A stretch of DNA of 51,309 nucleotides, taken from the NCBI GenBank assembly GCA_017395245.1, contig JAFPVR010000067.1, positions 1 through 51,309 of the forward strand, written 5' to 3'. Source of the stretch: Bacteroidales bacterium. Its GTDB lineage: Bacteria > Bacteroidota > Bacteroidia > Bacteroidales > WCHB1-69. Below are positions 16,682 through 51,118 of the stretch, one piece after another; within the stretch, counting starts at the first letter, position 1; each line of letters begins with the position of its first letter. The notes below the pieces were generated by a model. That model searched no databases. It saw only the letters and a program-made list of their open reading frames with translations, and was not told the origin of the DNA. Made by a program: the position numbers and the translations under genes.

Positions 16682-16709
16682 GTAGAGACGCACGGCCGTG
16701 CGTCTCTAC
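16682..16709. repeat. 28-bp GTAGAGACG palindrome, core CACGGCCGTG, at the ccsBA stop
   Basis: This is a perfect palindrome. On the minus strand its first arm supplies the TAG stop codon (16708-16706) of ccsBA, directly after ...SYAS. It sits 3 bp from the hairpin at 16659-16678. Confidence 0.95.
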
Positions 16710-18910
16710 GAAGCGTAGCTGTGCATCCCGCCTAAGATGAGGTTCACCCCGAAGTAGGTGATCAGCACGCTGAGAAACGCTAAGATGCCGTAGATGTGGA
16801 AGAACATCGGTTTCCGGAACGATTTCCAGAGGGTGCTGTGCAGCGGGGCGATGTAAACCAGCAGGGTGACGAGAGCCCAGACCTCCTTCGGGTCCCACGA
16901 CCAGTAGTTTCCCCACGAGATGTTGGCCCACACCGCGCCGATGAAGATGCCCGCGGCGAGCAGTGCGACGGCAGGGTAGAGCATAATCAGGCTGATATTG
17001 CGGAGACGTTCCAGATATTGCGTGTTCGACGGCTGCGTGAGGCGTACAATCACCGCGCTGATGCCGTTCAGCATGATGAAGAACAGCAGCGCGTAAGCAA
17101 TCATGATGACGGTGACGTGCAGGCTTAGCAGCGGCGACGAGAGCACCGGCATCAGATGGGTGATCGGGGGATTGGAGCCGCCCATCATTTGCACCAGCAG
17201 TACGATACCGGTCATCAACAGACCGGCGGGGAGGGCAATTTCGTATTTATTGCCGGTGTTTTGTAGAGACGTTGCGCGCAACGTCTCTACGGTTGTCTGT
17301 CGTTCTTGTAGAGACGTGCTGCAGCGCGTCTCTACCTTCGTGATAATCAGGGTGATAATGCAAATGCTCAACGCCAACAAATTCATCGAATCGAAGCTGC
17401 CCGCCATCGGCACGTGGCCGCCGGCGATCCAGCGCAGGATGAAGACCAGCGCCAAGAACACACACAGCAGCGACATCCACACTAGGGCTACCACTCTGAC
17501 AGGCTGGTAGAGCTTGCGGCCCTTCCCGAGGCAGATCAGAGCCGCTGCGAAGCATATTAGTCCCAACGTGATGGTCACCAGGGCTAACCAACGGCCTACC
17601 GAAAGCCGGTTGTAGAGCCGCTCGGCGCGGTATTGTGCTTGGGGCTGCGCCTGTCCAAGGGAGTATTTTTCCTGATAGGTCTTTGTCTTTTCGAAGAGTT
17701 CGTCCAGCGCGGCAAAATCCCCTAACACCACGTATTCTTTGCACAAACTCATCTGTTTTCGGATGAAGAGATATTCGTCATCAGGGATTTCCAAGGGAAG
17801 TTGGTCGTTTTGCGAATACCATGTCACCTGCTGCGCACTGTCGGCATGAGGGTAAATCTTCAGCAGTTGACTGTTCAGCAACATGTTGACAATCTGTTTC
17901 TTCTCTTCTGCCTCACGTTGTTTGCCCCGTTTTAGGTCACGTTCAATTCTGGGAATCGGCTCGCTCTGCCAGTCGCTGGTATAAAAAAGCCAGCCGCTGA
18001 AGACCTGCTCGGGGGTGTAGCCGCGATAATGGGCCTTGCCGTACAGCTTGGTAGTGAAATCCTTGGCGAGGGTCTGCAGTGGACAGACGCGGCCCTTGTA
18101 CATCACGTACATCTGCCCCATTTTGTCGGCACTCTCCTTCGGGAGCGTGCGGGGCTTTTCGTTAGCTTGTGCGGGCAGGGCGGCACCAACCGTCAGGATG
18201 AGGACGAGCAGTGTAGCCGCTGGAGCCGACGCTTTCCTCAGCAACGTCCGGAACTGTCCGTTTTTCTCGAAAAACATCCCCACTAAGGCGATGAACAGCA
18301 GGATATAGCCCGTGTAGGTCACTCCGACGCCCCAGGGGTCGTGTGCTACGGAAAGCACCGAGTTGCCCTCCTCGTCATAGTCGCTCTGGTAGAAGCGGTA
18401 GTGGCGGTATTTCAGGATGTTGTTCATCGAGATTTTGGCGTCAGTGGTCGTGCCTCCGTCGAGAATCTGGAGGTAGCTCACAAAGTCCATCGGCGTGTGG
18501 GTGCCCGGGTAGTTCTCCACCTCGAAACGGTCGAGGGTCAGGAAGAACGGCAGGGTCTCCGTGCGGCTGTTCCCGTGTTTCTCAACGGTGAACTTGTTGG
18601 TGGCGATATTGGGTTTCAGCGTCATCTCGCCGTGCTGTCCGGTGGTCATGGTCAGCAGCGCGCCGAGCAGGATCACCAGGATGGAAGCGTGGAGGGCGCA
18701 CACAACGGGCCTTTTCCACGATTTCCGCACGAACATCATGACGATGATGCCGAGGGCCAGCAGCGCCCACAGTCCGACGAACCACCACGAGCCATAGACG
18801 TGACCCAACGCGTAGTCGTTGCCGTGGCGCATCTCCACGACGGTGCCCGCAGCCATGGCGACGACCAGGGCGATTAGCAGGGCGGGGAGGATGTGTCTTG
18901 TGTTCTTCAT
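16706..18910 (-). CDS. ResB-CcsA fusion cytochrome c synthase (CcsBA)
   Basis: From ATG 18910 the protein has 734 residues; a TTG at 18922 is a poorer start inside the heptamer array. The N-terminal ResB-like part has membrane helices near residues 5-30, 40-60 and 67-90 and a GEMTLKPNIATNKF segment. The C-terminal CcsA-like part carries the haem-handling WGNYWSWDPKEVWAL motif (tryptophan-rich WWD type) and conserved histidines such as SLHVTVIMIAYALLF. CcsBA proteins export haem and attach it to CxxCH motifs of periplasmic apocytochromes. Residues 526-535 (VETRCSTSLQ) and 541-550 (VETLRATSLQ) come from two palindromic repeats in a loop between membrane helices. The di-haem protein upstream is a likely client. 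Confidence 0.9.
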   Translation of the reverse strand: MKNTRHILPALLIALVVAMAAGTVVEMRHGNDYALGHVYGSWWFVGLWALLALGIIVMMFVRKSWKRPVVCALHASILVILLGALLTMTTGQHGEMTLKPNIATNKFTVEKHGNSRTETLPFFLTLDRFEVENYPGTHTPMDFVSYLQILDGGTTTDAKISMNNILKYRHYRFYQSDYDEEGNSVLSVAHDPWGVGVTYTGYILLFIALVGMFFEKNGQFRTLLRKASAPAATLLVLILTVGAALPAQANEKPRTLPKESADKMGQMYVMYKGRVCPLQTLAKDFTTKLYGKAHYRGYTPEQVFSGWLFYTSDWQSEPIPRIERDLKRGKQREAEEKKQIVNMLLNSQLLKIYPHADSAQQVTWYSQNDQLPLEIPDDEYLFIRKQMSLCKEYVVLGDFAALDELFEKTKTYQEKYSLGQAQPQAQYRAERLYNRLSVGRWLALVTITLGLICFAAALICLGKGRKLYQPVRVVALVWMSLLCVFLALVFILRWIAGGHVPMAGSFDSMNLLALSICIITLIITKVETRCSTSLQERQTTVETLRATSLQNTGNKYEIALPAGLLMTGIVLLVQMMGGSNPPITHLMPVLSSPLLSLHVTVIMIAYALLFFIMLNGISAVIVRLTQPSNTQYLERLRNISLIMLYPAVALLAAGIFIGAVWANISWGNYWSWDPKEVWALVTLLVYIAPLHSTLWKSFRKPMFFHIYGILAFLSVLITYFGVNLILGGMHSYAS
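17263..17290. repeat. 28-bp GTAGAGACG palindrome, core TTGCGCGCAA, inside ccsBA
   Basis: This is a perfect palindrome read as VETLRATSLQ (residues 541-550) of CcsBA. It is identical over 28 bp to the copy at 15475-15502 inside the neighbouring ATP-grasp-like gene. Confidence 0.95.
17308..17335. repeat. 28-bp GTAGAGACG palindrome, core TGCTGCAGCG, inside ccsBA
   Basis: The arms are intact and the core has one unpaired position (T opposite G). It is read as VETRCSTSLQ (residues 526-535) of CcsBA. It is 45 bp (15 codons) from the copy at 17263, so both copies share one reading frame. Confidence 0.92.
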
Positions 18911-18915
18911 TTGCA

Positions 18916-18978
18916 GTTTCAAGTTTCAGGATTCTGGTTTCAAGATTCAGGTTTCAAGATTCAAGATTCAAGTTGCAA
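18916..18978. repeat. GTTTCAA/GATTCAA heptamer array, nine units
   Basis: Nine 7-bp units (GTTTCAA, GTTTCAG, GATTCTG, GTTTCAA, GATTCAG, GTTTCAA, GATTCAA x2, GTTGCAA) run up to 5 bp from the ccsBA start codon. The last unit overlaps the candidate -7 box, so on the minus strand the whole 5' leader of ccsBA is the array. Confidence 0.9.
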
Positions 18979-18983
18979 AAATA
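18976..18983 (-). promoter_or_regulatory. -7 box (TATTTTTG) for ccsBA
   Basis: The minus strand reads TATTTTTG 66 bp upstream of the ATG at 18910. The distance from the box to the start is filled by heptamer repeats. No -33 element is recognised, because a palindrome occupies that region. Confidence 0.45.
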
Positions 18984-18991
18984 TCAAAATT

Positions 18992-19019
18992 GTAGAGACG
19001 GGGCATGCCCCGTCTCTAC
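18992..19019. repeat. 28-bp GTAGAGACG palindrome, core GGGCATGCCC
   Basis: This is a perfect palindrome in the gap between the di-haem protein gene and ccsBA. It has a third type of self-complementary core, with identical arms. Confidence 0.95.
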
Positions 19020-19039
19020 GAAGACATACGGTCGTTTTC

Positions 19040-19067
19040 AATAACCAATAACCAATAAACCATAACC
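19040..19067. repeat. AATAACC heptamer array, four units (reverse of GGTTATT)
   Basis: The units AATAACC x2, AATAAAC and CATAACC are the reverse complement of the GGTTATT family found after pckA. On the minus strand the array begins directly after the TAA stop of the di-haem protein gene. Confidence 0.8.
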
Positions 19068-19068
19068 A

Positions 19069-20628
19069 TTAAATCGCATTAATGAACTTCACGACGGCGT
19101 CGCGCTCCTCCTTGCTCAGGTTGCGGAATTTCTCGACGGTCCAGCGGGCGTCGCTTTGGGCGCTGCCGTGCCACATGATGGCCTCGATGACGTTGCGGGC
19201 GCGGCAGTCGTGCAGACGGTCGCTGGAGCCGGTGCAGACGGCGGAGAGACCGCGTCCCCACAGCGGAGTGGTGCGGCACCAGCCGGTGCGGATATCGTTC
19301 TTCATACAGAGACGATGCTGAACCATGTCGGTGTAGGGCCATATCTTCTGGTTTGGGTAACGTGGCAGACGCTGGTCGCCGGTGGTGAAGAAACCGTTGG
19401 GGTCGGTGAAACGGTCGGGGCCAGTGGTCCAGCTGGGACGGTGGCAGCTTGCGCACCCGATCTCGCGGAAGAGCTTGCGACCCTTCTGCACCTCGGCATC
19501 GTCGAGGTTACGGGCGGCGGGCACGGCCAGACCTCTGTGCCAGACCATCAGGTTGACATAGTCGTCGTTGCTCATCTCGGCGGGCAGGTCTTTGCTCATC
19601 AGGTAGTTGTAGATGTCTGTCTCGGGATTTCCGGTTTTGTTGTAATCCGGGAAGTAGGTGTAGAAGGCAGCCTGCACATCGGGATCTTGGGAGGCGATGC
19701 GGGCGTAGGTTTCGGTCATGTAGTGGTAACGACGGTCGCCGCGCGTCACGTTGGTGATGTTCCAGATGGCGTTGGCACCGGGACCGTCCTGCAGCGGACC
19801 GCGCGAGCAAGCGTAGGTGAAACGCTTCGGGTGGTTGGTCTTGCCGTAGAGGCCGGTCGTGGCCCAGTCGGTGCCGGCCCACATGGCCGGGTTAAGGTTC
19901 GCGCCGGCCATCGATTCTTTCAAGTACTGTGCCTTCAGCGAGTCGTCGGGAATGGCGTCTAAAAGCCCGGTGCCGTAGATGCCGATGGTGGATTCCAACC
20001 GCACCACTTCGCTGCCGTAAGCCAGCGGTTGTCCGCCAACCTCCAACGGTACATAGTAGGCGGAGGCGGGGATATAGACCTCCGGGTAAATCAGGCTGTA
20101 GGTCTCGCCGTCGGGAAAGCGGTTGCCCCACTCGTCGGTGTAATCGAGCCAGCTGATTTGGATCTGGCTCTCGTCGATGGGGGCCTTGAAGGGCGGCACC
20201 GCCTTGGTCTGCGGCATGCCCGTGAGCGAAGAGACGTAGTTGCCGTTCTGGTCAGTAACCACTAATAGGTAGCCGTTGCCCCAGTCGCTGGCGGCGTAGC
20301 GGTCCATGCGCTTGCCGTGACCGTAGCCTGGATGGCAGGCGATGCAGGAACTGCGGATGTAGAGAGGACCCAAGCCGTTGAAGGGCGGCGTGTTGATGTT
20401 GAAGTCGCGCTCGAACAGGTACTCGCCGTACTTGAACGCGGCGATGTCGGTGACCGCCGGGGTGGGATCCTCATACGCGGACGAGGAACTGTTGAAGGTC
20501 GTGCCCAACTTGCCTCCGGCGTAGGTTTCTTCCTCGATCCACGACATCTCGTTGTTCTCGGGCTTGTGGCATCCCGCCAACAAAAATAATCCCAAAACAA
20601 TAATAATGGTTGTCGTTATTTTATTCAT
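19069..20628 (-). CDS. Di-haem oxidoreductase-family lipoprotein
   Basis: The protein has 519 residues. The N-terminus is a lipoprotein signal (LFLLAGC, lipid cysteine C20). Two haem c sites are visible: CIACH (95-99) and CASCH (392-396). The C-terminal WCRTTPLWGRG and VIEAIMWHG segments are typical of the COG3488/DHOR family, which is related to di-haem cytochrome c peroxidases. I infer a periplasmic membrane-anchored redox protein that needs CcsBA for maturation. Imelysin and DHOR genes are neighbours in many bacteria, often under iron control. It starts 9 bp after the imelysin gene, so they share a transcript. Confidence 0.9.
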   Translation of the reverse strand: MNKITTTIIIVLGLFLLAGCHKPENNEMSWIEEETYAGGKLGTTFNSSSSAYEDPTPAVTDIAAFKYGEYLFERDFNINTPPFNGLGPLYIRSSCIACHPGYGHGKRMDRYAASDWGNGYLLVVTDQNGNYVSSLTGMPQTKAVPPFKAPIDESQIQISWLDYTDEWGNRFPDGETYSLIYPEVYIPASAYYVPLEVGGQPLAYGSEVVRLESTIGIYGTGLLDAIPDDSLKAQYLKESMAGANLNPAMWAGTDWATTGLYGKTNHPKRFTYACSRGPLQDGPGANAIWNITNVTRGDRRYHYMTETYARIASQDPDVQAAFYTYFPDYNKTGNPETDIYNYLMSKDLPAEMSNDDYVNLMVWHRGLAVPAARNLDDAEVQKGRKLFREIGCASCHRPSWTTGPDRFTDPNGFFTTGDQRLPRYPNQKIWPYTDMVQHRLCMKNDIRTGWCRTTPLWGRGLSAVCTGSSDRLHDCRARNVIEAIMWHGSAQSDARWTVEKFRNLSKEERDAVVKFINAI

Positions 20629-20637
20629 AATTCATAA

Positions 20638-21783
20638 TTAATCTTCGTACGTTCTCAACGCCTCATTTACCTTCGACAGCACCTCGTCGAGGGCTTGGCA
20701 GGCTTCGATGGCTTCGGCGTTCTTGGGGTCGGTGTAGTGGTTGACGAACGGGCGCGGCATGGCGTCAATCTTGGCGAGGGCGGTGTTGATGGCGTCTTCC
20801 ACTTCGCTGTCGAGTTTGCTGTCCATCTTCTTGACGTAGGCGTGCAGGGAGAGTTTGTCGGTGCGCTGTCCTTCGATGCCGCCGTAGTAGGCGTTCTGGA
20901 TGCTGAGGATGTTGTTGTAGAAGTCTTCGATGGATTTCTGGCTGTAGGGTGATTCGATGTAGTTGGGGTCTTCGCCGTTGTAGGGCTTGCCGATTTTGGA
21001 GGTGCCTACCTCGTCGGCGATGGTCTTGCAGCCGTCCACGATGGCCATGAGGCCGCTGACACTGCTGGCGTAGGTGCTGCCCGGGGTGCCGGACTTCTTG
21101 AGGTTGTCGCCGTAGCTGTAGCTGCCGCCGTTGACGGTGCTGTTGAGTTCCAGCTCCTCCACTTTGTCGCGGTGCGACTTCGGGGCGGCGTCGCCGATCC
21201 AGCTCACTTCCAACTGGAAGCAGCGGTTGCGCAGGTCTCCGGCCACCGCGATGGCATAGTCTAACTGCGAGACGGTGATCTCATTCGCATTTCTCGGCTG
21301 TCCGTTGCTGAAGAGGATGTACTCAACGCCGTGGAAGCCGAGCAAGGCGTTGCCGAGCTGCTCGCCAGCTACCACATCGCCGTCTTCACCGGCCAAGGCC
21401 GCCAGCATGCTCGGACTGTTCATTAGGTTGTTGAAGGCGTCCACGTCCAACGGCCAGGAGTCGATGTGCGGGTCGATGCCGAAGTCGGAGGCCGCGCCGA
21501 AGAGGAAGGCTTCGCTCTTCTCCCACCACGCACGGGCGGTCAGGAAGGTTTCGCAGACCTTGTTCAGGTCGCTTTGCGAGCCGCTGGCTTTGAAGGCCGT
21601 CAGCTCATTGACCAGCGTTTCGGTGTGGTTGGCCAGGTTGGTGTAGGTCGGGGCGATGGTGTGGTCCACGTACTGCTCGATGACTTGCACCTGCTTTTCG
21701 TTGACTAAGTTTCCTTCGCCGTGATTACAGCTGGTTGCTACCAGCGCGATTGCCACTATTGTGGCGATGAGTGTTTTTTTCAT
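20638..21783 (-). CDS. Imelysin-family (M75-like) lipoprotein
   Basis: From ATG 21783 the protein has 381 residues with a lipoprotein signal (ALVATSC, C19). A longer open frame to 21939 would add 52 residues with no signal sequence and run through a hairpin repeat, so it is rejected. The imelysin GxHxxE signature is GFHGVE (149-154), and WWEKSEAFLFGAASDFGIDPHIDSWP is also diagnostic. Imelysins are helical periplasmic or surface proteins linked to iron or haem uptake; protease activity is doubtful. It lies between a porin gene and the di-haem protein gene on one strand. Confidence 0.9.
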   Translation of the reverse strand: MKKTLIATIVAIALVATSCNHGEGNLVNEKQVQVIEQYVDHTIAPTYTNLANHTETLVNELTAFKASGSQSDLNKVCETFLTARAWWEKSEAFLFGAASDFGIDPHIDSWPLDVDAFNNLMNSPSMLAALAGEDGDVVAGEQLGNALLGFHGVEYILFSNGQPRNANEITVSQLDYAIAVAGDLRNRCFQLEVSWIGDAAPKSHRDKVEELELNSTVNGGSYSYGDNLKKSGTPGSTYASSVSGLMAIVDGCKTIADEVGTSKIGKPYNGEDPNYIESPYSQKSIEDFYNNILSIQNAYYGGIEGQRTDKLSLHAYVKKMDSKLDSEVEDAINTALAKIDAMPRPFVNHYTDPKNAEAIEACQALDEVLSKVNEALRTYED

Positions 21784-21812
21784 ATTGGTAGGTTTTAGTT
21801 TGTTTCTTGTGT

Positions 21813-21864
21813 CCCAGGGCTCACTGCGTTCACCCTGGGTTAGCATACTTCGGGCTTGCAGCCC
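21813..21864. repeat. Paired hairpins CCCAGGG/CCCTGGG and GGGCT/AGCCC
   Basis: CCCAGGG (21813-21819) pairs with CCCTGGG (21833-21839), and GGGCT-TGC-AGCCC follows at 21852-21864. Both lie in the 95-bp gap between the porin stop and the imelysin start. They could weaken read-through and set the ratio of porin to imelysin transcripts, or be a dispersed repeat. The sequence does not decide between these. Confidence 0.7.
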
Positions 21865-21878
21865 TCTTGGAAGCATTC

Positions 21879-23225
21879 CTAAGCTTTTTTGTGGAACTCG
21901 TGCGCGAACATGCCGGCCCAGGTGATGCCGAGGGCGCACCAGGGTTCGGGATTGTATTGTTCTTTGAGGAGGCGGACGCCGCCTTCGGCCTTGATGACAA
22001 TCTGCTTGATGGGGCTGTAGTTGAGGCCGCCGCTGACGCAGTGGCGGTTGGTCCAGTCGTAGTCGGTCATGTTGTGGCCGGGGATGTAGGAGTCATAGTA
22101 TTCGTAGCGGGCGAAGAGGTAGAGCTTGTGGCGGTCTAGCTTGGGGTTCTTGTGGTGGTGGAAGATGTCGTAGCCGAGCTCGCCGCCCGCGCTCCACGCC
22201 GCCTGTCCCACGAGGGTCTGCGGGTAGGGGGCCTGCGAGCTGTGAGGTAGGGTGGAGTTGTAGACGGAAATCAGCTCGCAGTCGCTGAGGTAGCCGTAGA
22301 GACCGCTGCCGCGCAACACGAGACCGTCAACCTTGTAGCTGAAGTCCAACGCACCGATGGCCGCCGTGCCGCGCACGTCGGCATAGCGCGAGGAACCCTC
22401 GTCGGTGATGATGTCGTTGCGGAAGGTGTTGCCCACGAAGCCGCTGATGCCGATGTGCAGTCCCTTGATGCTGTAGTTGTCGATGCGGGCGGCAACGGCT
22501 AACTTGTTGGCAACGCGGAACTCGTAGGGCGAGGCCGAGCCGTCGTGCGCCCAGCCGGAGACGCTGAACATGCTGGAGTTGAGCGACGGGATGAGCATCA
22601 CCTCGTAACGCCAGTCTTGGATGCGGCCCCAGACTTCGATGCCGGTTTCATGCCACGTGCAGGGGATGATGGTGTTCTCGCCTTCGGGACGATAGACCCC
22701 GAAGAACTGGGTAGGCAGGTGGGCGAAGTTGGTGCCGCCCACGGGCACTACGATATGGCCGGCGCGGATGTTCATTTTACCGCCCCAGAAGGCTTTCTGC
22801 AGCCAAAATTGCTCCAAGGCAACCTCGCCGCCGCGCTCGATTTCCTTCTCGAACTCGCCGGTTTCCTCCTCTTCAACCTCTACGGCTGCCTCGACACCGC
22901 CGTGCTCGAACTCAATCTCCGTGTTGAAGCTCCAGCCGTGCCCGAAATCATAGCCTAACATGATGACGGCATGCGGCAGGTCGACACGACCGTGCCCCTT
23001 GGAATTGGCGTAGTTGGCCGCATGGGAATAGCGGAACACGTTGTCACTAAAGAAGTTGTATTTATAGACGGCTTCTCCGTAGCCGCCGACGGTGAGCGTG
23101 CCGAGCGATTTCCCCTTCGGAGCCGCCGATTCCTTGATTCTTATGGTGTCAGATTCTTGTGCAATAACTGTCTGTAAGCCAAATACTAAAATAACCAATA
23201 AGGCAAGTGGTATCCTTTTACACAT
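21879..23225 (-). CDS. Outer-membrane porin (OprP-like beta-barrel)
   Basis: From ATG 23225 the protein has 448 residues with a signal peptide (MCKRIPLALLVILVFGLQTVIAQ). An ATG at 23282 would add a non-signal extension. The body shows alternating barrel-type strands with features seen in phosphate-selective-porin-like proteins: FWGGKMNIRAGHIVVPVGGTN, a WHETGIEVWGRI strand and YLFARYEYYDS. A glutamate-rich segment near residues 120-145 (VEVEEEETGEFEKEIERGGE) is a probable metal-attracting loop. It heads the porin-imelysin-di-haem group, so I infer uptake of a metal or its chelate. The substrate is not shown by the sequence. Confidence 0.75.
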   Translation of the reverse strand: MCKRIPLALLVILVFGLQTVIAQESDTIRIKESAAPKGKSLGTLTVGGYGEAVYKYNFFSDNVFRYSHAANYANSKGHGRVDLPHAVIMLGYDFGHGWSFNTEIEFEHGGVEAAVEVEEEETGEFEKEIERGGEVALEQFWLQKAFWGGKMNIRAGHIVVPVGGTNFAHLPTQFFGVYRPEGENTIIPCTWHETGIEVWGRIQDWRYEVMLIPSLNSSMFSVSGWAHDGSASPYEFRVANKLAVAARIDNYSIKGLHIGISGFVGNTFRNDIITDEGSSRYADVRGTAAIGALDFSYKVDGLVLRGSGLYGYLSDCELISVYNSTLPHSSQAPYPQTLVGQAAWSAGGELGYDIFHHHKNPKLDRHKLYLFARYEYYDSYIPGHNMTDYDWTNRHCVSGGLNYSPIKQIVIKAEGGVRLLKEQYNPEPWCALGITWAGMFAHEFHKKA

Positions 23226-23343
23226 AGCATATATTTTTATGCTGCAAAAGTGTAAAAGCCATCCCGATGCCCGCATACCCAAAAATGATGATTCATGGGT
23301 TATGGGGTAACAAGAAATAAGGATAACGTAAATCAGCTGTTCA

Positions 23344-26300
23344 TCAGAACGGATATCCTATGCTGAAGTTGAGGCGCAGACCGTCAAGGAAGGAAGGCAT
23401 ATTGTAATAGGTGTTGATCGGTCGTGAGAGATCAGGATTGAGGTCTTTGTCATATTTGTAGGTCTGGTAAGGTGCGTGGATACCGATACCCAAGTCCAAG
23501 CGGACAACAAGGCCGTCGATGTCAAGGCGGAGGCCGGCACCGGTACCCAAGGCAATCTGCTTCGCGATATTCTTGTTTCCGATAATTCCGTCCTGTATCT
23601 CCTCCGTGAACCCCATCATCTCGCAAAGTGCCGCATAATCTTCGCTGCTGAGGAGATCAGAAGTATTACGCCAGTTCCATACGTTACCGGCATCAAGGAA
23701 AACGGCACCATTGATTTTCCAAACGATGGGGAAGCGCAACTCGAAGTTCGCTTCGAGTTTGACATCGCCGGCATGGAAGAAGTTCTGGTTAAATTTGATA
23801 CTATGGAAATTTCCGGGTCCGTAGGCGTAGGCTTCTGCCGCCCGCAGGCTGTTGGGGCCGCCGGCATAGAAGGATTCGGAAAGCGGTGCATATTCGGAGT
23901 TGCCCATCGGAATGTTGGCGCCTGCAAATATACGCGTTGCAATGCATATCCGATCCGTAAAGTTGAACTTGTTCCAAAGTTCGGCCGACAACCGGACAAA
24001 CTGGTTGAAGGGGATGTGGGCAATCGGCTTGTCCAATTCATCCCACTTGTGCCCGAAGAGGCAATAGACAGCATTCGTCAGGGTACCCGCTTCTTTGATT
24101 TCAAGGTCGATCATGGTGTTGACCGGCCGTTTGGTGCGGTAGTCACTGTAGGTGATTCCATAGCCGACCGAGGGAACAAACTCATTTCCGGCAAGCACTT
24201 TGAGGAGCTCCGGATGCTCTGCTACCTCTTGGGCCAACTCTTCCGTTTCGGCCTTCACCTTGATCAATGAGAGCGAGGCAGGTGTGAAGACATGTGTGAT
24301 ATATTGCGACGTGCGGATGAAATACGAGAAGGCTCCGGAGAACTTGTGTACACCGTATCCGCCGGCAATGTTTTCGTACTTGTATCCTATCCGGTAGCGG
24401 GTGTCGCCGTCGGGGTTGTTGTCTCCCGCCCAGTGAAGGTACGGGAAGATGAGAGCGGCATCAACACCGAACTTGTAGGTGTCGGAGTTTTTCGGGTCTC
24501 CCGGCTGTCGGTTGCGCAGCGCCCAGTAGTATGCCCCATAGCCCTTGACCGAGAAGGTTTCCCCGCGTCCCAAGAGGTTCTTGGTCGAATGCGCGAGGGT
24601 GAGGTTCGGGCCGATACTGCTGTTGGAACGATAGGCGATGTCTGCATCGGCCAGGAAGTTGTATGTACGGGTGATGGAATCGCCCAAGGAACGCATGTAC
24701 CGGTTCCGTTTCCAGGTCTTGGTCGCTCCCACGCCGATACCGGACTTGGTGAGTTCGCCTTCCAAAATATTCTCATAATCGCGCTGTGAGAACGCACGTA
24801 AGAAAACATTTCCGGATTTGGTCAGTTTGTACTCCGCAGAGATGAGGCTGAGCAAGCCGTTGGCTTTGTTGACCTCGGGGTTGTCGGTGATGGTGGAGCC
24901 GACCGTGATGCGCAGTCTGTCGTTGAGCAGCGATTTGCTGATGGCGATGTTCATGTCGTTGGTCTTGCCGGACGCATGTGTGGTTTGTCCACTGCTGATA
25001 TCCACATCCACGATGTTCCCTAATTTGGAATTCGCCATTGCGGCGTTGATACGGCTGTTGATGATGCTGGACATGGCGTATCCATCCCTTTGTGCCGCCA
25101 CATTGCTTTCGCCCATATACATTCCGGTAGCTAACAATACGGCCGCTATACCGTCGCGGGTTTCTTCATCCATAGAGGCGAGTTCGCGCTCGATGGTTTC
25201 GTCATCCGGCGCTTCGAGGAAGAATCCGATGGTGCTTAGACCTATCGAATCGAGCACGCCCTTCACGCGCACGCCTGTGTTGAAGGTCACGCGGCGCGTC
25301 TCTTCGCCCTCCGATTGCACATCGGATTTTACCTGTTGTGAAGCGGAGAGGTCCAGGATGGTCTGGCCGATGGGACCGTTGAGGGTGACATGGCTTCCCG
25401 AATCCACCTGGAAGGGAATCATGGGATACATCTTGGGCGAATAGCGAACCAAACCTTCATCCACATTGATTCTTCCGCCTAAGTTAAGGTCCCCGTCAGC
25501 GGTGTTGTACTTGGCATTGACCGTGCCGTAGGGCTTAACTTGCGCTAAGTTCTTCTCATCTATTGGATAGGTTAAATCGGTGGTGGGCAGGATGGTGACA
25601 TTCACGTCGGCAAGGATGCTGTCCAACGGTCCGGTCACCTGTCCGCGGATGTCGGTGGCCAGGTTGCCATAGACGGGGAAATATCCATTCTGCTCTAAAT
25701 TCACCGGCGAGAAGTTGTCGGCAGATAGGTCTACGTCGATAAGCATCGTGTTGAGGTCCAATCCACCGTTCAGCGCTAAATAGGAGCCGTTGATGCTATA
25801 GATGCGCACATCGTTGAGCTTTACATTGTTATGCTCCATTACGATAGGCGTTTCGCCCAGACTGAACAGCACATCGTAGGGCTCGTAGTAGGCATATACG
25901 TCCAACGGCCGCACTTCTGCGGAGAGGTCCAATTGGGCAGGCAAACCGTCTGCGGAAGCCTTGACCTGAACGATACCGTCCACGTCGATGTCTTCCATAT
26001 CAAGGATATTGTTCACCAGCTCGAGCGGGATGTCGTCCAACCGCAAATCTGCCCGGATGGCATTGTCGAACTGCTCCGATGGCGTAATCTTGATATCCGC
26101 CGTGCGGTTGTCGAGATCCATTCCGTCGTATTGGAGGCTGTCCAACGCAAGGTGTCCCGTTCCGCTCAGCTCGCGCCCGTTCCGCTCCAGATTGAGCTGC
26201 AGCGCGGCATCGGTGCAGAGGTTGTCCACACTCATCACGCCGTCGGTAATGCTGGTGTTGGCTGTGAGCGAGGCGGTGGTCTTGCCTTCCGTCATGTTCA

Positions 26301-28149
26301 CCCGTATTGCCGCCGTGGCCGGAGGCAGACGCAGTCCTGTACTGTCTTTGGCCGTGTTGTCGATGTACGGGATGGAAGCATCCAAGGCCAGGTCGGATTG
26401 GAGGGAATCGGACTTCAGCGACAGCGTCACCTCCTCGATATCCAACCCCATCCGCTCGATGATAGCCTGGACAGGGCTGCCTTTCGCCAGCTGGATTTCC
26501 GCCTGTAAGTTTGGTAAAAGCTGTCGGAGCGTGTCTAACATCGTCAGGTCTTGTAACGAGACGATGGACTGCACAAACGTCGTGTCTGTGACCACCCCAA
26601 GCACCGGTTGCACATCGTCCACTAAGCGGAGCACATGCATCGGGCTTTGGGCATCGATGGTGAGCCCCTGGGTGACCAAATACAGCGATGTGGCGGTATC
26701 CGTAGAGAAGTCAAGGTTCAGATAGTCGACATCAAAATCCTCGCCCGCCACGTGTGCCAACACATGCTCCATCTGTGTATGATAGTCCACGTTCATCTTT
26801 TTCGGCGTCAAGAAGTTCGATACCCGGAACTGGTGCTCCGTCTCCGCCTTCACTTGCAGGTCTTTGTCCAGCATCGTGACCGGCAAATGCAGGTTTCCGG
26901 CCACGGTTTTATTGGCCAGCTCGGCATCAAGCACCAAGCCGGAAACGTTGATGTTGTTATAGATGCAATCGGTCAGGTTCATGGCCACTTTGCACTTCAT
27001 TGCGGGGGACTTAGGATCTATTCCTTTGCCCTGCGCATGAATTACGCCAGTCAGTTCCACGTGGTGACTCTCATCTAGGAATGCGCTTGCATCCACTTGC
27101 TCCACATTCACCAGCATGTCATACATCTCATCATCAATGTCATAGAATCCCTTCAGGTTTGCCTTATTACCTTTATAATCGGCATTGCCGGCCAAATCCA
27201 CCCGCATTGTCTCAAGATTCAGATTCGTGCCCGTCAGGTCCGCTTTGGCCCCGAATTCGTCGGAGCGGGCGTACAATCGGTTCGAAGTAATCAGATTGGT
27301 GTTCAGATCCACCCGAGCATCGCCATGGATGGTGTCAAACGGCAGGTTCAGTGTTCCGAGCGTGAGCGAAGCATTCCCGATGTTCAGACGACGGGCGTCG
27401 TAGAGGTTCCCTCCTACGTCCGCCAACACGTTCGTGGACAGGGAGCCGGCGCGTATATCCAGCCCCATCGGATTGAGCAGGAAGCGCACATTGCGCAGCT
27501 CACCGTCCGGTATGTCGAAGGCCATCGGAGTGGAGGTGGTGTCCTCGTCCACTTCCTCCTCGGTGTCGCGCAACTCAATGCCCACAAACGCATCCGCCAA
27601 CATCAAGCCGTGCAGCGGGTACTGTCCTTTCGCGATGTTGAGCCCCGGACTCTTTACATCCAGATGTCCCACGATTGCGTCAATTCCCACCGCGCCGATC
27701 AGCGTGTCGGAGTGGACCGTGGCTTGGTCTAACAGCAGTTGGTCCACCAGGATGGTTCGGGCCAGAAAGTCGTCTTTCGCCTCTCCCTCCCCAGGCTTAT
27801 TCATACTGCCTTGCAGACGCAAGCCGTGCACGTAAAGCAGTGTGTCCTGGCCGCGATGACCGATAAAGAGACTGTCGATTTCTATGTGCACAGGCAGGTC
27901 TTCGGTGCCCTTGTAGGCACGGTAAAGAATCATCGGAGAATGATGGAAAGGGGAAAGATAGAGCCGTCCCAGATCTACATCAAGGTCGGTCCGCTCATTA
28001 ATTTCCACCACGCATCTTTGAAGGACGGCGTTTCGTGCTTTAGGCGTCACCAGAATGATCATTAGGACAATCAATAGTATCAGGATTATCCCAAAGATAC
28101 TCCCTAAAACGATGCAGGGTATTTTCCAGATTAGACTCTTCTTGCTCAC
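23344..28149 (-). CDS. TamB-like protein fused to an Omp85/TamA-like barrel
   Basis: This is one uninterrupted frame of 1601 residues, starting at a GTG (28149) because an in-frame stop lies 6 bp upstream and the next ATG would remove the membrane anchor. Residues about 8-33 are a membrane helix. Residues about 35-1147 are a long AsmA/TamB-like beta-rich body, ending in the DUF490-type segment MNIAISKSLLNDRLRITVGS ... NVFLRAFSQRDYENILEGEL. Residues about 1148-1601 match the barrel of Omp85 proteins: THVFTPASLSLIKV, FVPSVGYGITYS, the L6-like GGPNSLRA (1430-1437), ANFELRFPIVW, VFLDAGNVW, and a C-terminal phenylalanine. No POTRA domains are seen. TamA and TamB normally are separate proteins that insert outer-membrane components. 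Confidence 0.85.
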   Translation of the reverse strand: MSKKSLIWKIPCIVLGSIFGIILILLIVLMIILVTPKARNAVLQRCVVEINERTDLDVDLGRLYLSPFHHSPMILYRAYKGTEDLPVHIEIDSLFIGHRGQDTLLYVHGLRLQGSMNKPGEGEAKDDFLARTILVDQLLLDQATVHSDTLIGAVGIDAIVGHLDVKSPGLNIAKGQYPLHGLMLADAFVGIELRDTEEEVDEDTTSTPMAFDIPDGELRNVRFLLNPMGLDIRAGSLSTNVLADVGGNLYDARRLNIGNASLTLGTLNLPFDTIHGDARVDLNTNLITSNRLYARSDEFGAKADLTGTNLNLETMRVDLAGNADYKGNKANLKGFYDIDDEMYDMLVNVEQVDASAFLDESHHVELTGVIHAQGKGIDPKSPAMKCKVAMNLTDCIYNNINVSGLVLDAELANKTVAGNLHLPVTMLDKDLQVKAETEHQFRVSNFLTPKKMNVDYHTQMEHVLAHVAGEDFDVDYLNLDFSTDTATSLYLVTQGLTIDAQSPMHVLRLVDDVQPVLGVVTDTTFVQSIVSLQDLTMLDTLRQLLPNLQAEIQLAKGSPVQAIIERMGLDIEEVTLSLKSDSLQSDLALDASIPYIDNTAKDSTGLRLPPATAAIRVNMTEGKTTASLTANTSITDGVMSVDNLCTDAALQLNLERNGRELSGTGHLALDSLQYDGMDLDNRTADIKITPSEQFDNAIRADLRLDDIPLELVNNILDMEDIDVDGIVQVKASADGLPAQLDLSAEVRPLDVYAYYEPYDVLFSLGETPIVMEHNNVKLNDVRIYSINGSYLALNGGLDLNTMLIDVDLSADNFSPVNLEQNGYFPVYGNLATDIRGQVTGPLDSILADVNVTILPTTDLTYPIDEKNLAQVKPYGTVNAKYNTADGDLNLGGRINVDEGLVRYSPKMYPMIPFQVDSGSHVTLNGPIGQTILDLSASQQVKSDVQSEGEETRRVTFNTGVRVKGVLDSIGLSTIGFFLEAPDDETIERELASMDEETRDGIAAVLLATGMYMGESNVAAQRDGYAMSSIINSRINAAMANSKLGNIVDVDISSGQTTHASGKTNDMNIAISKSLLNDRLRITVGSTITDNPEVNKANGLLSLISAEYKLTKSGNVFLRAFSQRDYENILEGELTKSGIGVGATKTWKRNRYMRSLGDSITRTYNFLADADIAYRSNSSIGPNLTLAHSTKNLLGRGETFSVKGYGAYYWALRNRQPGDPKNSDTYKFGVDAALIFPYLHWAGDNNPDGDTRYRIGYKYENIAGGYGVHKFSGAFSYFIRTSQYITHVFTPASLSLIKVKAETEELAQEVAEHPELLKVLAGNEFVPSVGYGITYSDYRTKRPVNTMIDLEIKEAGTLTNAVYCLFGHKWDELDKPIAHIPFNQFVRLSAELWNKFNFTDRICIATRIFAGANIPMGNSEYAPLSESFYAGGPNSLRAAEAYAYGPGNFHSIKFNQNFFHAGDVKLEANFELRFPIVWKINGAVFLDAGNVWNWRNTSDLLSSEDYAALCEMMGFTEEIQDGIIGNKNIAKQIALGTGAGLRLDIDGLVVRLDLGIGIHAPYQTYKYDKDLNPDLSRPINTYYNMPSFLDGLRLNFSIGYPF

Positions 28150-28192: not shown

Positions 28193-30856
28193 TTATTTGT
28201 CGTCATTAACGATGTGTACATCGACTTGGTTGAACGGGATGGCGATGCCATTTTCTTTCAACGCCTTGTATATCACTTCTTTGGCTTTGCTCATAAAACC
28301 GAATCTTTTCTCTACCAGCACAGACTGCTTCATCGCGATAACCAAGCTGTCGTCACCGAGTTCGGAGACGCCCACTTTGATGCCCCATTTTGGGTCAACG
28401 ACATCGCGTCCATAATCGTCCTTGGTTAGCAGTTCTTTGCTTGCCTCGAGCAGCACTTCCCGCACCTTATCCACATCGGTGCCGTAGCTGACACGCACAT
28501 TCACCTTCGTGTACACGTATTCGCTGCCACGCGTCAGGTTTTTGAAGCTTTTGTTGAAGAGCGTGGAGTTGGTAAAGGCGATAATGGGACCGCCCAGCTC
28601 CTGAACATGGGTGGTTTGGTAGTTGATGGCCGTCACTTTGCCCAAGTTGCCGTCACATTCAATCATGTCGCCCACGCGCAGGCGCCCACCCATGAGTTGG
28701 ATACCGTATATGAAGTTGTTGATAGTGTCTTTCAAGGCGAGACCGACACCAGCTGACAGACCGCCGGCGATGAGTCCCAATGACCCAGTGGGGATATGCA
28801 GCGTCACAACAAACAAGTCCGCATAAATAAACCAGATAAATACGCTGATAAGGCTATCGCCCAATGAGAGATTGACTTCATTGTCACGTACCGTCTGTTG
28901 TTCGTGCTTGCGGAGATAATGCCGGTAAGCTGAGATCTTCCATAAGGTGTGGGCTCCTTTGTTTACATAACGGAATATGGCGAACGCCCCTGCCAGGAGC
29001 AGGAGGTTATGGATGGACACCTGGAATTCACCCTGAGTGAAGAAGGGCTTTTCGAAAATCGTGAGATACAAGTCTTTGAATTCGAAGATGTCCAGTGCCC
29101 AATATGCACAAGTGGGAATAGTATACAGCACTGCCAGCGGAATCAGGACCTCACGAATGAGGTCATAAAACCAGGTGGCACCGAAAAGCAGCTTATCCTT
29201 TTCCGAATCTGTCACATAGGTAATTTTTTCTTTATAAGCCTCTATCCGCTTATCTAAGCGCATCTTCTTGTACAGCTGCATCAGGCTCAAGACAGAGACA
29301 ACCGCGAGGATAATCGCCAACTGGGAGTACCACCACACCAGGATGATCAATGAGAGGAAAATGAAACCACACCAGCAGATAAGCGTGGCGACAGCCGTAA
29401 CGCCAAAGGAGACCCAGCCAATCACCGTGTCGATCTTGTCAACTTTTGAGCTGAGCCGCAAATTGGAGATTAGCTGCCACAGCACAACGATAAAGAGCAG
29501 TAGCGGGAAGAAGAAATTCAAGAATGCATTAGGCACGAACAACATCCTGAATATAATCACGAACAAAGCCATGAAAATGGTGGGCAGGTAAATCCGGAAA
29601 CTGCTTTTAAGCTTGGCGGGTTCCAGCCGAATTAGCTGAGCGGTGGTGATGGCTACGAGCAGCCACATGAAAGTGTGAGTAACTGTGACGCCCTTGCGTA
29701 TGAGAGCGTCATCAGTGGCCTCGTATGAGAAAATGATGAACAGGATGCAACCCAGTAGAAGCGCCAAATACCGCCGCTGCTCCTTGTCCACCCGTTTCCC
29801 AATGGGCTTAATATAACGAAACACCAGAAATAGCAGGAGAGCCGACAGTCCCCAAATGACGAAGAAGCCCAAAGTATACATCAGCAGCCAATAAAACTTC
29901 AAAGAGTTGGCCATCTGATCATCGTTCGTGATTTCTTCCGAATTCTCGTCGAATTGCTTATCACGAAACACTTTCACAAAAGCGAGGCTGTATTTTTCAC
30001 CCATGGCATCCCAAGCCTCTTTCCAATATTTTTTAGGATGGGCCAGGATGGTCCACCAGGGAATCTGCCCCTCTACAAACACTTTGTTTTCGAGGATGCC
30101 ATAATAATCCCGGGCATACTGGTAGGACTCTTCCATGCGTATCCGCGCTTCCTGATAGTAGATGCTGTCGGCCATCACCAGCTCTCGTGCCTCGGCATAC
30201 ATTTTAAGCAATTCGGAGGCATAGAAAAGACAGGAATCACGGTCAATCTGGCCGTTTTCGCTAAGGACAAACGCAGATGCAATTTCTGGGATTACCGTAT
30301 CCACTATAGCATTCTGGTCCAAAACGGAGTCCACCTGTTCTTGCAGTTCCTGTTTCAGGAGGCTTTCGGTTTGTGACAGGTATTCATCCAGCGTGTCGTT
30401 GCGATAGGCCAGACTGTCCGGCAACACCTCTACGTCCACAAGTTCCGGCGGAAGGCGGCGCAAAGACTCAATCAATCGGGCATAACGGGCGATCTCAATA
30501 TCCAGGTTGGCGACAATTCGCTCGTATGGCGTGCGGTTTTTGTCGAATTCGTGGAATTCTTGCGTTACCCTCTCCAGTGCATAACTGATATCGAAAGTAT
30601 AGTCCTGCTTCTGGGAATACAGCATCAGGGACATGTCGTTGCATTTTTTCATAATCGACACCATCTTTTGGTGTTGATCTTCATACTTGCTATTCAGCTG
30701 CTGACGTGTCTTGTTTATCTGCTTATAATCGTGATACAGTTCCCGCCGCAAGTTGGACAGCGTCACATCCAGATCATGCCCCGTAAACACAGACATGGAT
30801 ACCATTGCTATGGCTAACAATGCCACAACTCGTCTTAAAAATTTGGTTTTTTTCAT
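28193..30856 (-). CDS. Large MscS-family mechanosensitive channel (copy 1)
   Basis: The protein has 887 residues with a signal peptide. About residues 30-270 form a periplasmic, helix-rich domain (QINKTRQQLNSKYEDQHQKM). About 330-670 hold many membrane helices. The MscS pore and beta domain is at about 680-790: GSLGLIAGGLSAGVGLALKD, NNFIYGIQLMGGRLRVGDMIEC. The C-terminal cytoplasmic domain ends in VDVHIVNDDK. The architecture resembles MscK/YbdG-type large channels that release osmolytes on hypo-osmotic shock. It is a paralogue of the gene at 48434-51118 and sits 43 bp upstream of the TamB fusion gene on the same strand, so the two may be co-transcribed. Confidence 0.92.
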   Translation of the reverse strand: MKKTKFLRRVVALLAIAMVSMSVFTGHDLDVTLSNLRRELYHDYKQINKTRQQLNSKYEDQHQKMVSIMKKCNDMSLMLYSQKQDYTFDISYALERVTQEFHEFDKNRTPYERIVANLDIEIARYARLIESLRRLPPELVDVEVLPDSLAYRNDTLDEYLSQTESLLKQELQEQVDSVLDQNAIVDTVIPEIASAFVLSENGQIDRDSCLFYASELLKMYAEARELVMADSIYYQEARIRMEESYQYARDYYGILENKVFVEGQIPWWTILAHPKKYWKEAWDAMGEKYSLAFVKVFRDKQFDENSEEITNDDQMANSLKFYWLLMYTLGFFVIWGLSALLLFLVFRYIKPIGKRVDKEQRRYLALLLGCILFIIFSYEATDDALIRKGVTVTHTFMWLLVAITTAQLIRLEPAKLKSSFRIYLPTIFMALFVIIFRMLFVPNAFLNFFFPLLLFIVVLWQLISNLRLSSKVDKIDTVIGWVSFGVTAVATLICWCGFIFLSLIILVWWYSQLAIILAVVSVLSLMQLYKKMRLDKRIEAYKEKITYVTDSEKDKLLFGATWFYDLIREVLIPLAVLYTIPTCAYWALDIFEFKDLYLTIFEKPFFTQGEFQVSIHNLLLLAGAFAIFRYVNKGAHTLWKISAYRHYLRKHEQQTVRDNEVNLSLGDSLISVFIWFIYADLFVVTLHIPTGSLGLIAGGLSAGVGLALKDTINNFIYGIQLMGGRLRVGDMIECDGNLGKVTAINYQTTHVQELGGPIIAFTNSTLFNKSFKNLTRGSEYVYTKVNVRVSYGTDVDKVREVLLEASKELLTKDDYGRDVVDPKWGIKVGVSELGDDSLVIAMKQSVLVEKRFGFMSKAKEVIYKALKENGIAIPFNQVDVHIVNDDK

Positions 30857-48433: not shown

Positions 48434-51118
48434 TTATTTATCATTCCTTACAATGTCTTTAACGTGTATATCGCACTGCGGGAATGCAATTGTGATACCC
48501 GCGTCGTTCAGAGCCTTGTAGATAACTTCCTTGGAACGATCCACGTATGCAATCCGTTCGGGAACCAGCACATACTGTTTCACGGCGATATCCACAGCGC
48601 TTTCGCTCATGTTATCCAATACTATATAAATACCCTTCTTCGGATCCACGATATTGCGTCCGTAGCTGTCTTTGGTGTCCATTTGCTTCATCGCCTCTTC
48701 CAGGACTTCGCGCACCTTTTCCACATCGGTGCCGTATTCCACACCGACGATAATCTTGGTGAACTCATACGAGTTGTTCCGGGTCAGATTGTTGAAACTC
48801 TGGCCAAAGAGGGACGCGTTCATGAAAGACATCTCGGTGCCGTTAATGGTCTCCACCAGCACGCATTGGTAGTTGATGGCAGTAACCCTTCCCCGCACTC
48901 CTTCGCACTCAATCCAGTCGCCGACCCGCAGTCGTCCGCCCATCAACTGGATACCGTAGATGAAGTTGTTGATGATATCCTTGAGGGCAATACCGATACC
49001 GGCCGACAAACCACCGGCAATCAATCCCAAGGAGCGGGTGGGTACCTTCAACTCCTCCACCACCGCAATGACATAGATCATCCAGATAATCGAACTGATG
49101 ATGCTGTTTCCAATCGACAGGTTGATTTCGTTGGCGCGCACGTAGTCGCGTTTGTGCTTGCGCATGAATGCCGAATATCGGATGTGGTGCCAAATGACAT
49201 GGATGACGCGGTTGATGTAACGGAGCAAACAGAACAGGAACATCAGATAGACAATGCTGATGATGGACACCCGTAGCGATGAGATCCCCGTGGCCTCGTC
49301 CGTCAGCTGGAAGAAAGGCTCGAAGTAGTATCGCGAGAAGAGATCCGTAAAATCAAACACGTCCAAAGAGAGCCGGACGCACAACGGTAGGGAGTACAAC
49401 AGGAGGGCAGGAACCACGACCTGCTTGATGAAGTCGTGGAACCACGTGACACGGAAGTTCAGGATGTCACTGTCTTCCCCATATACGTATGCGTTGTGTT
49501 TCCGATTGGCCTCGATACGCTCGTCCAACCGTTTTTCCTTGTAGCGGTCCATCAAATCCGAGATGCAGAAAATCGTTGACAAAGACACCAACATGAAATA
49601 CCAGAAAACCAAGCCGATCAAGGCGAAAAAGATGAAACCGAAGAACGAAACAATCAATGCGACACTATAGATACCTAACGAGATCCAGCCGAGAATGCTG
49701 TCTGTTCGCGGAGCTTTCCCTCGCTCTATCAGACAAACGACGAGCTGTCCTAACACGGCAACGAGCAAGACCGGTGTGAACACGATGTTCAACAGGATGT
49801 CCGGGATAAAAGTGTTTCGGCAGATGATGATGAACAAAGAGAGCAGAATGGTGGGGAGGTAGAGGCAGAATCCGTGACGAAGTTGGTTTGGCTTGACACG
49901 AAGGAGCAAGGAGCCGGCAATGGCCGCCAGCAGCCAAAGGAAGGTGTTGATGTTTTTCACGCCGTAGTGTACGTATTCGCTTCCCTGCCAGAAGTAGCCG
50001 AACATCAGGAAATACAGGATGGTGCCCACCAATACGGAAAACAGAAACAAGGATTTCTGTTGGATAACGTTTTTGAATTTGGTGTAACGTCTGAGCAGCC
50101 AAAGGATTCCAAACACAAAAAGCCACACAACAAAAAGTGTGCCTAATTGAATGGAACAGGCTGATGCCGAATAGGCTTTTTCCGCCCGTCCGGACAACTT
50201 GTTGTAAAACTCTTTGTCTTCTGCTTTCGCCTTTTTCAAGGCGTCAAAATCGTACTCGTTGCGCATCTCCTTCTTCATCGTTTTCCAATAGGTGTCGAAG
50301 TCGGAGAGAATTTCCGAATAGGGCTTTTGTCCGGTCTTAAAAACGTATTTGTCCAGTTCGGCGTAGAGCGCTTCGGCATAATTGTACGCCTCTTCAGTGC
50401 GTAAGAAAGCGCTCTTGTAGTGTGTGCTGTCTGCCACGACCGCATTGCGGTTCTTGGCGAACATCTTCAGCAGTTCGGAGGCGTAGAAGATGCAGGAATC
50501 GCGGTACTCTTCCCCTGCCTTGTCCAGCACAAAGGGAGCCGAGGTACTATCCTTGATGGCGATCTGGATGATTTCCTTCTCCAAGTAGGAAGTGATAGTC
50601 GACAGCGTGGTGTCCAACGAATCATTGACGTTGAAGTTTATCAGGCTATCCAGCACCTTCTCAACTTCTATCTCAACCTCAATCTCCTTCATCTCCGGCG
50701 GAAGACGGCGGAGAGATTCGATAAGGCGCGCATAACGCTCTATCTCGAAACTTAACTCGTTGATGATTTGGTCATACGGCCGCATACCTTTGCTGAAATT
50801 ATCATAGCTGGTCGTCACCTTCTTCAGGGCGTATGCCATGTCAAACGTCCTGTTCTGCTCCCGCGAATAGAGCAGTATGGAGAATTCGTTTGTATGCGTG
50901 ATGACATCGATCATCCGTTGGTGCTGACGCTTGTACTCTTTGTTGAAAAACTGTTGTGTTTCAGGCCTTTGATCATATTGCGTCTTCAATTCCAAGTTCA
51001 ACTCTTTGAGGGTGTTGGTCAAGGAACGCTCGTTCACAGTCTCCTCCTGCGCCATAGCGCCGACTGAAATCACGATGACCGCTAAAAGGCATAATATTTT
51101 TTTGAGGTTTGCCGCCAT
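48434..51118 (-). CDS. Large MscS-family mechanosensitive channel (copy 2)
   Basis: This 894-residue paralogue of the channel at 28193-30856 has the same layout: signal peptide (LLAVIVISVGAMAQ), periplasmic helix-rich domain with QRPETQQFFNKEYKRQHQRM, a long membrane region, and the MscS pore and beta domain at about residues 690-800 (RSLGLIAGGLSAGIGIALKD, FIYGIQLMGGRLRVGDWIEC). The C-terminus is CDIHVKDIVRNDK. The two copies look moderately similar at the DNA level, with frequent third-position differences, which indicates an old duplication. It has its own -7 box and is followed by a small membrane protein gene. Confidence 0.92.
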   Translation of the reverse strand: MAANLKKILCLLAVIVISVGAMAQEETVNERSLTNTLKELNLELKTQYDQRPETQQFFNKEYKRQHQRMIDVITHTNEFSILLYSREQNRTFDMAYALKKVTTSYDNFSKGMRPYDQIINELSFEIERYARLIESLRRLPPEMKEIEVEIEVEKVLDSLINFNVNDSLDTTLSTITSYLEKEIIQIAIKDSTSAPFVLDKAGEEYRDSCIFYASELLKMFAKNRNAVVADSTHYKSAFLRTEEAYNYAEALYAELDKYVFKTGQKPYSEILSDFDTYWKTMKKEMRNEYDFDALKKAKAEDKEFYNKLSGRAEKAYSASACSIQLGTLFVVWLFVFGILWLLRRYTKFKNVIQQKSLFLFSVLVGTILYFLMFGYFWQGSEYVHYGVKNINTFLWLLAAIAGSLLLRVKPNQLRHGFCLYLPTILLSLFIIICRNTFIPDILLNIVFTPVLLVAVLGQLVVCLIERGKAPRTDSILGWISLGIYSVALIVSFFGFIFFALIGLVFWYFMLVSLSTIFCISDLMDRYKEKRLDERIEANRKHNAYVYGEDSDILNFRVTWFHDFIKQVVVPALLLYSLPLCVRLSLDVFDFTDLFSRYYFEPFFQLTDEATGISSLRVSIISIVYLMFLFCLLRYINRVIHVIWHHIRYSAFMRKHKRDYVRANEINLSIGNSIISSIIWMIYVIAVVEELKVPTRSLGLIAGGLSAGIGIALKDIINNFIYGIQLMGGRLRVGDWIECEGVRGRVTAINYQCVLVETINGTEMSFMNASLFGQSFNNLTRNNSYEFTKIIVGVEYGTDVEKVREVLEEAMKQMDTKDSYGRNIVDPKKGIYIVLDNMSESAVDIAVKQYVLVPERIAYVDRSKEVIYKALNDAGITIAFPQCDIHVKDIVRNDK

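Follow-up and report, generated by a model that had tools for sequence, protein, structure and literature searches.

Can TamB and an outer membrane barrel of the TamA/TamL type, the two partners of the translocation and assembly module (TAM), be one and the same polypeptide? The question is raised by a gene on contig JAFPVR010000067.1 of the Bacteroidales bacterium assembly GCA_017395245.1, of which positions 1 to 51,309 of the forward strand (51,309 nucleotides, hereafter the window) were analyzed. A preliminary description of this gene had proposed a single open frame joining TamB to such a barrel, with an N-terminal membrane helix, a TamB-like body ending in a DUF490-type segment and a barrel without POTRA domains. 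The 1601-residue frame, the profile searches, the related genes and the structure models agree with this proposal, and the motifs GGPNSLRA and VFLDAGNVW and the terminal phenylalanine listed there are all present. The gene shows the following features:

23344..28149, minus strand: fused TamB-TamL gene, 1601 amino acid residues in a single open frame with a GTG start
28045..28122, minus strand: N-terminal signal anchor or membrane helix, approximately residues 10-35 (hydropathy and AlphaFold2 (AF2) model)
25201..28044, minus strand: TamB-like beta-rich body, residues 36-983
25543..25563, minus strand: residues 863-869, site of a missing segment of about 60 residues aligned with the coupling loop 998-1012 of E. 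coli TamB (alignments)
24706..25200, minus strand: TamB C-terminal domain, a helical stretch (residues 984-1038) followed by six strands (residues 1046-1148) (DSSP on the AF2 model)
24706..24759, minus strand: last TamB strand, residues 1131-1148 (model and alignment with the ends of separate TamBs)
24676..24705, minus strand: linker (residues 1149-1158) leading from the last TamB strand to strand 1 of the barrel
23347..24675, minus strand: Omp85 barrel assigned to the TamL2 type, 16 strands, without POTRA (profiles, tree and model)

The membrane helix is predicted from one strong hydrophobic stretch, with a top Kyte-Doolittle mean over 19 residues of 3.26 (starting at residues 13-17) versus 1.22 for the best stretch elsewhere, and from the AF2 model, which runs from residue 2 on and shows an N-terminal helix at residues 3-33. 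In most full-length relatives the BLASTP alignment begins at residue 1 of the fusion. The helix is followed by the extended beta-helical or beta-taco body that characterizes TamB, and the six modeled C-terminal strands align with the ends of separate TamBs. Profile alignment with hhalign of the fused TamB part against separate TamBs gave a probability of 100% and an E-value of 3.4e-50, covering nearly the entire part. Furthermore, five of ten scanned fused relatives match Pfam TamB (PF04357, E-values 1e-13 to 7.9e-18) and Omp85 in one chain, both above the cut-off, and the Pfam TamB model recovers three fused genes across 15 whole genomes. The fused TamB part, used as a sequence profile, found nothing at E≤1 among PDB chains, and no TamB chain is among the best 50 structure matches listed for the C-terminal model.

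The C-terminal third is a barrel according to both Pfam and NCBIfam. Residues 1383-1599 match Pfam Omp85 above its cut-off (E 7.8e-16), and residues 1159-1601 (443 residues) match positions 332-747 of the 747 of the NCBIfam TamL model (NF052279) with an E-value of 4.5e-94 and 316 bits, which is below a curated cut-off of 400 bits set for the whole protein. The absent first 331 model positions correspond to the signal and the POTRA region, and the Pfam scan found no match to the POTRA family in the fusion at E≤1; as a control, three of three scanned separate TamLs match POTRA at E≤0.01, two of them above the cut-off. In structure comparison this third aligns with TamA, which is included among the best solved structural matches of the barrel model, and by sequence it matches only BamA chains of the PDB (E 6e-4). 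The linker ahead of it is short (about 10 residues), polar and basic; by eye it contains neither a signal peptide nor a lipobox, and cysteine is absent from residues 646 to 1362. The lipidated cysteine is invariant in nine of nine aligned separate TamLs, and the fusion lacks the TamL lipoprotein signal. The Omp85 superfamily is defined by a 16-strand barrel and at least one POTRA domain (PMC11116518); the fusion has such a barrel and no POTRA domain, beta-1 following the TamB strand after about 10 residues.

The single chain recurs in related genomes. No stop or frameshift was found at the junction in the 36 related loci of the named genome collection, all of which cross it in frame, with best-segment identities to the window copy of 57-87%. 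In 29 of them the gene is full length (including L084, which stops two residues short at a contig end); in six a contig end truncates its start, and in L098 it is broken near residue 990, far from the junction. A ruminant host is given in the record titles of 15 loci, a further 16 carry RUG labels, which we take to denote rumen genomes, and five have neither. The fused proteins of L080 (9917-15013) and L119 (5776-10851), with 1698 and 1691 residues, exceed the others by about 90 residues. Ratios of nonsynonymous to synonymous substitution (dN/dS, Nei-Gojobori, six pairs) are 0.12-0.20 over the whole gene and 0.08-0.13 in the barrel; the TamB C-terminal domain, with 0.03-0.08 in five pairs (the sixth has no synonymous change there), is the most constrained part. 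Purifying selection therefore acts on both halves.

Since all 36 loci are in frame over the junction and dN/dS is low, the fusion is not an artefact. The named carriers are metagenome-assembled or uncultured, which counts against the functional reading given below and is what an error of assembly or annotation would have in its favor; such an error has practically no probability, contradicted by 36 junctions at these identities and by the occurrence of the gene in three families in the search of the order. Decay into a non-functional remnant would account for the broken copy (L098, G016), now in frames of 998 and 608 residues, and for an N-terminal remnant adjoining an intact copy (G007, L100). 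It is contradicted by the dN/dS values and by the full length of the gene in 29 loci, and we consider it very improbable.

The window genome contains one separate TamB and one full TamL besides the fusion. A separate TamL was also found in all 15 other carriers searched; 14 of these keep a separate TamB, and the exception (G019) is an assembly 86% complete. A second separate barrel at E≤1e-12 was found in none of the 15. With an ordinary TamB and TamL kept in the same genome, the fusion is to be read as an extra TAM beside the ordinary one, which refines the preliminary description.

Of 40 genomes of the genus, 15 carry the fusion, two of them as a gene split in two; in the order it was found in five of 393 genomes, belonging to three families, and in the phylum sample in one of 395, the window genome itself, which is also the only one there with a frame of more than 928 residues that matches the barrel (E≤1e-18). 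These counts and the named loci are not independent, because some contigs are apparently shared (for example, L075 with G271:C9). Two long TamL frames, in G092 (1300 residues) and G162 (1031 residues), were rejected as fusions, being by eye ordinary TamLs with a lipobox and a long open stretch upstream. G002 has two intact copies, and upstream of the intact copy in L100 lies what is left of the N-terminal part of another (2446-2994; G007:C30:2408-2982); together these suggest that the gene has been duplicated. Identities of the fusion and of BamA to those of the window genome are out of step, which points to horizontal transfer from these sequence comparisons. This is clearest for G271 and G453, of another family, with 47% in BamA and 76% in the fusion; in G413, of a third family, the values are 47% and 53-64%. 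Inside the genus, BamA ranges between 78 and 93% and the fusion between 74 and 87%, again not in step (G012, 93% versus 79%). When the junction was searched by tblastn against 72,556 plasmid records, no record had a single place that covered 80% of the query, and four had a match confined to one half (42-51% of its length).

As to its origin, the most likely ancestor of the fusion is a TamB2-TamL2 gene pair that lost its intervening stretch. In the barrel tree, 17 fused rows form one clade (100/100) that joins six TamL2 barrels (98/99), while the window genome's own TamL clusters with its genus elsewhere. The trees were built from the window, 16 fused loci (of 37) and, because only plus-strand frames were taken, eight other TamL loci (of 18); the bootstrap did not converge, and the tool warned of long branches meeting. 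The fused clade is also found in the TamB tree (100/100), which is weak outside it, and a long branch leads to the clade in both trees. A TamL gene lies directly behind a TamB gene in many other Bacteroidales; in nine pairs, the distance between the TamB stop and the first possible TamL start is a gap of 3, 1, 36, 228 or 847 nucleotides or an overlap of 4, 14, 41 or 143 nucleotides. The pair Fjoh_1899/1900 of Flavobacterium johnsoniae is TamB2-TamL2 in the same arrangement with overlapping genes; loss of tamB2 and tamL2 by deletion left growth unaffected in the media tested, while deletion of the separate tamB and tamL was not obtainable (PMC12045153). Because the barrel groups with TamL2 and TamL2 is encoded right behind TamB2, the fusion can be read as this pair minus what lay between: DNA from the TamB2 end to the first TamL2 barrel strand would have been lost, taking with it the TamB2 tail, the TamL2 lipoprotein signal and all TamL2 POTRA domains. 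The barrel is thus assigned more narrowly than in the preliminary description.

If a covalent joint has replaced docking, POTRA and the loop that docks to it should be lost together. In E. coli, both POTRA1 and POTRA2 are contacted by the coupling loop of TamB (residues 998-1012), and deletion of POTRA2 is lethal in a functional assay (PMC12800296). The alignment comprises E. coli TamB, 33 fused rows (34 less the fragment L101) and 23 TamBs that are separate proteins in Bacteroidales; the separate set used 14 of the 25 loci L043-L067, six being omitted as same-genome and five as TamL-side matches, and the TamB of L107 is not in it. Coupling-loop residues are absent from all 33 fused rows and number 19-24 in each of the 23 separate TamBs. 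The missing block of about 60 columns is the sole lost block of at least four columns in the alignable C-terminal part, ragged start aside, and the hhalign alignment puts its gap at the same spot. The interface with POTRA thus appears to be gone on both sides, as POTRA domains on the TamL side and as docking loop on the TamB side.

We infer, with a probability of about 0.6, that the fusion is a permanently docked single-chain TAM for delivery of lipid and/or outer membrane proteins. In the cryo-electron microscopy structure of E. coli TamAB (2026), strand 1 of TamA and the final strand of TamB pair within a hybrid barrel (PMC12800296). In the fusion, the same two strands follow each other in the chain with about 10 residues between them, so that an antiparallel hairpin fits and would hold TamB docked for good at the lateral gate. 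Covalent docking would need no POTRA, which would also explain the missing POTRA-binding loop of TamB. The N-terminus would stay in the inner membrane, the beta-taco body would span the periplasm and the barrel would sit in the outer membrane; anchoring in both membranes and a bridge for lipid or protein, as the preliminary description had it, would follow from the predicted anchor and the predicted barrel. The TamB part is plausibly long enough for this span, its approximately 1148 residues being close to the 1259 of E. coli TamB. As an accessory to the ordinary TamB and TamL, the fusion would carry phospholipids in the anterograde direction along the groove of TamB and/or insert a small number of outer membrane proteins. 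More tentatively, the fusion may be a natural obligate hybrid barrel, with the TamB C-terminal strands and the 16 TamL strands in one sheet, possibly one barrel of up to 22 strands, and the gate always filled by the lipid bridge; it would then be a conduit from inner to outer membrane that consists of one protein, needs no POTRA and spreads horizontally.

Several points weigh against the reading as a permanently docked TAM from a TamB2-TamL2 pair. The hairpin is deduced from chain order, and the linker of L083 appears shorter. Both structure models are of moderate quality, with predicted local distance difference test scores (pLDDT) of 74.3 and 75.8 and predicted template modeling scores of 0.56 and 0.53, and pLDDT is below 50 at residues 1022-1044, 1051-1054 and 1088-1100 of the TamB C-terminal domain in the AF2 model. 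Pfam TamB has no match in the window copy at E≤1, and the other five of the ten scanned relatives match Omp85 but not Pfam TamB. The coupling-loop equivalence depends on alignment to a distant E. coli TamB, and the loop is not the only loss, the body upstream being shortened as well (fused TamB part about 1148 residues versus 1490-1620 in eight complete TamB2 genes). Of the eight TamB-to-TamL pairs represented in the tree, L106 and L107 have barrels that attach next to the fused clade with support of 87/44, outside the well-supported group, and the TamB tree leaves the nearest relatives of the fused TamB halves unplaced. A larger gap or overlap is found in four of the nine TamB2-TamL2 pairs (36, 228, 847 and -143 nucleotides). 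Finally, the neighboring genes are not conserved and so give no pointer to a client.

Two other explanations accept the gene as real and functional. The chain could be exported as one and then cut in the linker, yielding TamB and a free barrel that act as two proteins; the short, polar and basic linker would suit a cut, and with no signal seen before the barrel, its export would depend on TamB. The products would lack POTRA on the barrel and the coupling loop on TamB, leaving the strand pair as the one known docking, and the region of the last TamB strand is well conserved; we therefore regard cleavage as unlikely. Somewhat less unlikely, but still improbable, is a changed role of the barrel, as a tether or a dedicated pore or secretion device for one client class instead of a TAM for lipid and outer membrane proteins. 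The long branch to the fused clade would agree with this, as would the dispensability of tamB2 and tamL2 in F. johnsoniae, and the patchy presence, extra copy and apparent transfer resemble an accessory trait more than a housekeeping one. Against it, no client gene travels with the fusion, and constraint is strongest in the C-terminal domain of TamB.

Flanking open reading frames were clustered for 37 fused loci (L068-L103 and L119) as a possible guide to a client, which was rejected since nothing is widely shared. The most frequent neighbor, an upstream Na/H-exchanger-type protein (one member scanned), occurs in 11 of them, MscS-like channels in differing orientations are in the examined flank of seven, and the remaining scanned neighbors are unrelated to one another. 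In the window, two MscS-like channels of 887 and 894 residues, both with a large N-terminal part, are encoded at 28193-30856 and 48434-51118 on the minus strand, the first 43 nucleotides upstream of the fusion; the run between them includes four type-B carboxylesterases, three amidohydrolases, a DUF3089 protein and an FGE-sulfatase-like protein. Downstream, at 16706-23282 (minus strand), there are a 467-residue protein without Pfam match, an imelysin (M75), a di-haem oxidoreductase and cytochrome c assembly genes, a set that recurs whole or partly in L069, L081, L096, L098 and L099. Directly upstream of the diverged fusions of L084, L087, L092 and L094 lies a small secreted-looking protein of 279-289 residues (at 9137-10000 in L084), with no Pfam match at E≤0.01 in the two scanned.

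The fusion touches two open questions: the passage of lipids from inner membrane to outer membrane, and the status of the TamA-TamB hybrid barrel, which may be a functional state or a by-product. In these gut Bacteroidales, evolution would have dropped all POTRA domains and the aligned docking loop while joining the strand pair of the hybrid state, a natural test of lipid or protein delivery to the outer membrane. If the fusion works, this would argue that TAM depends essentially on contact through the strand pair, POTRA serving as an aid to docking. As a single chain of fixed stoichiometry, the fusion also provides a TAM for structure and transport assays. No description of a TamB-TamL fusion was found among the literature matches listed (titles and abstract starts, covering few subscription journals or preprints), and the words "fusion" and "fused" are absent from the main texts of PMC12045153, PMC4494059 and PMC13382580.

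Compared with known systems, the fusion resembles TamAB of E. coli in its inner membrane anchor, beta-taco, C-terminal strand domain and 16-strand barrel. However, TamAB consists of two proteins in the gene order tamA-tamB, with three POTRAs in TamA and a POTRA-binding loop in TamB (PMC12800296), while the fusion is one chain, TamB then barrel, and has neither. With TamB2-TamL2 of Bacteroidota (F. johnsoniae, G112, G178, G400 and others) it shares the TamB-then-TamL order, the barrel phylogeny and the TamB C-terminal domain; there, TamL2 is a separate lipoprotein with POTRA, whereas the fusion is one chain without lipobox or POTRA. In the hybrid BAM-TAM modeled for Borrelia, six C-terminal TamB strands and BamA beta-1 form one continuous hybrid barrel, made of two proteins with POTRA contacts (PMC13382580); in the fusion, the strands lie within one chain. 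Plant OEP80tr and Toc75-IV, described as truncated Omp85 proteins (PMC4195282), likewise have an Omp85 barrel without a full POTRA domain, so that POTRA loss alone is not new, but they are not joined to a TamB-type protein. As it lacks a defining feature of each of TamB, TamL and canonical Omp85, the fusion is placed as a variant of TAM and not as a member of any of these three.
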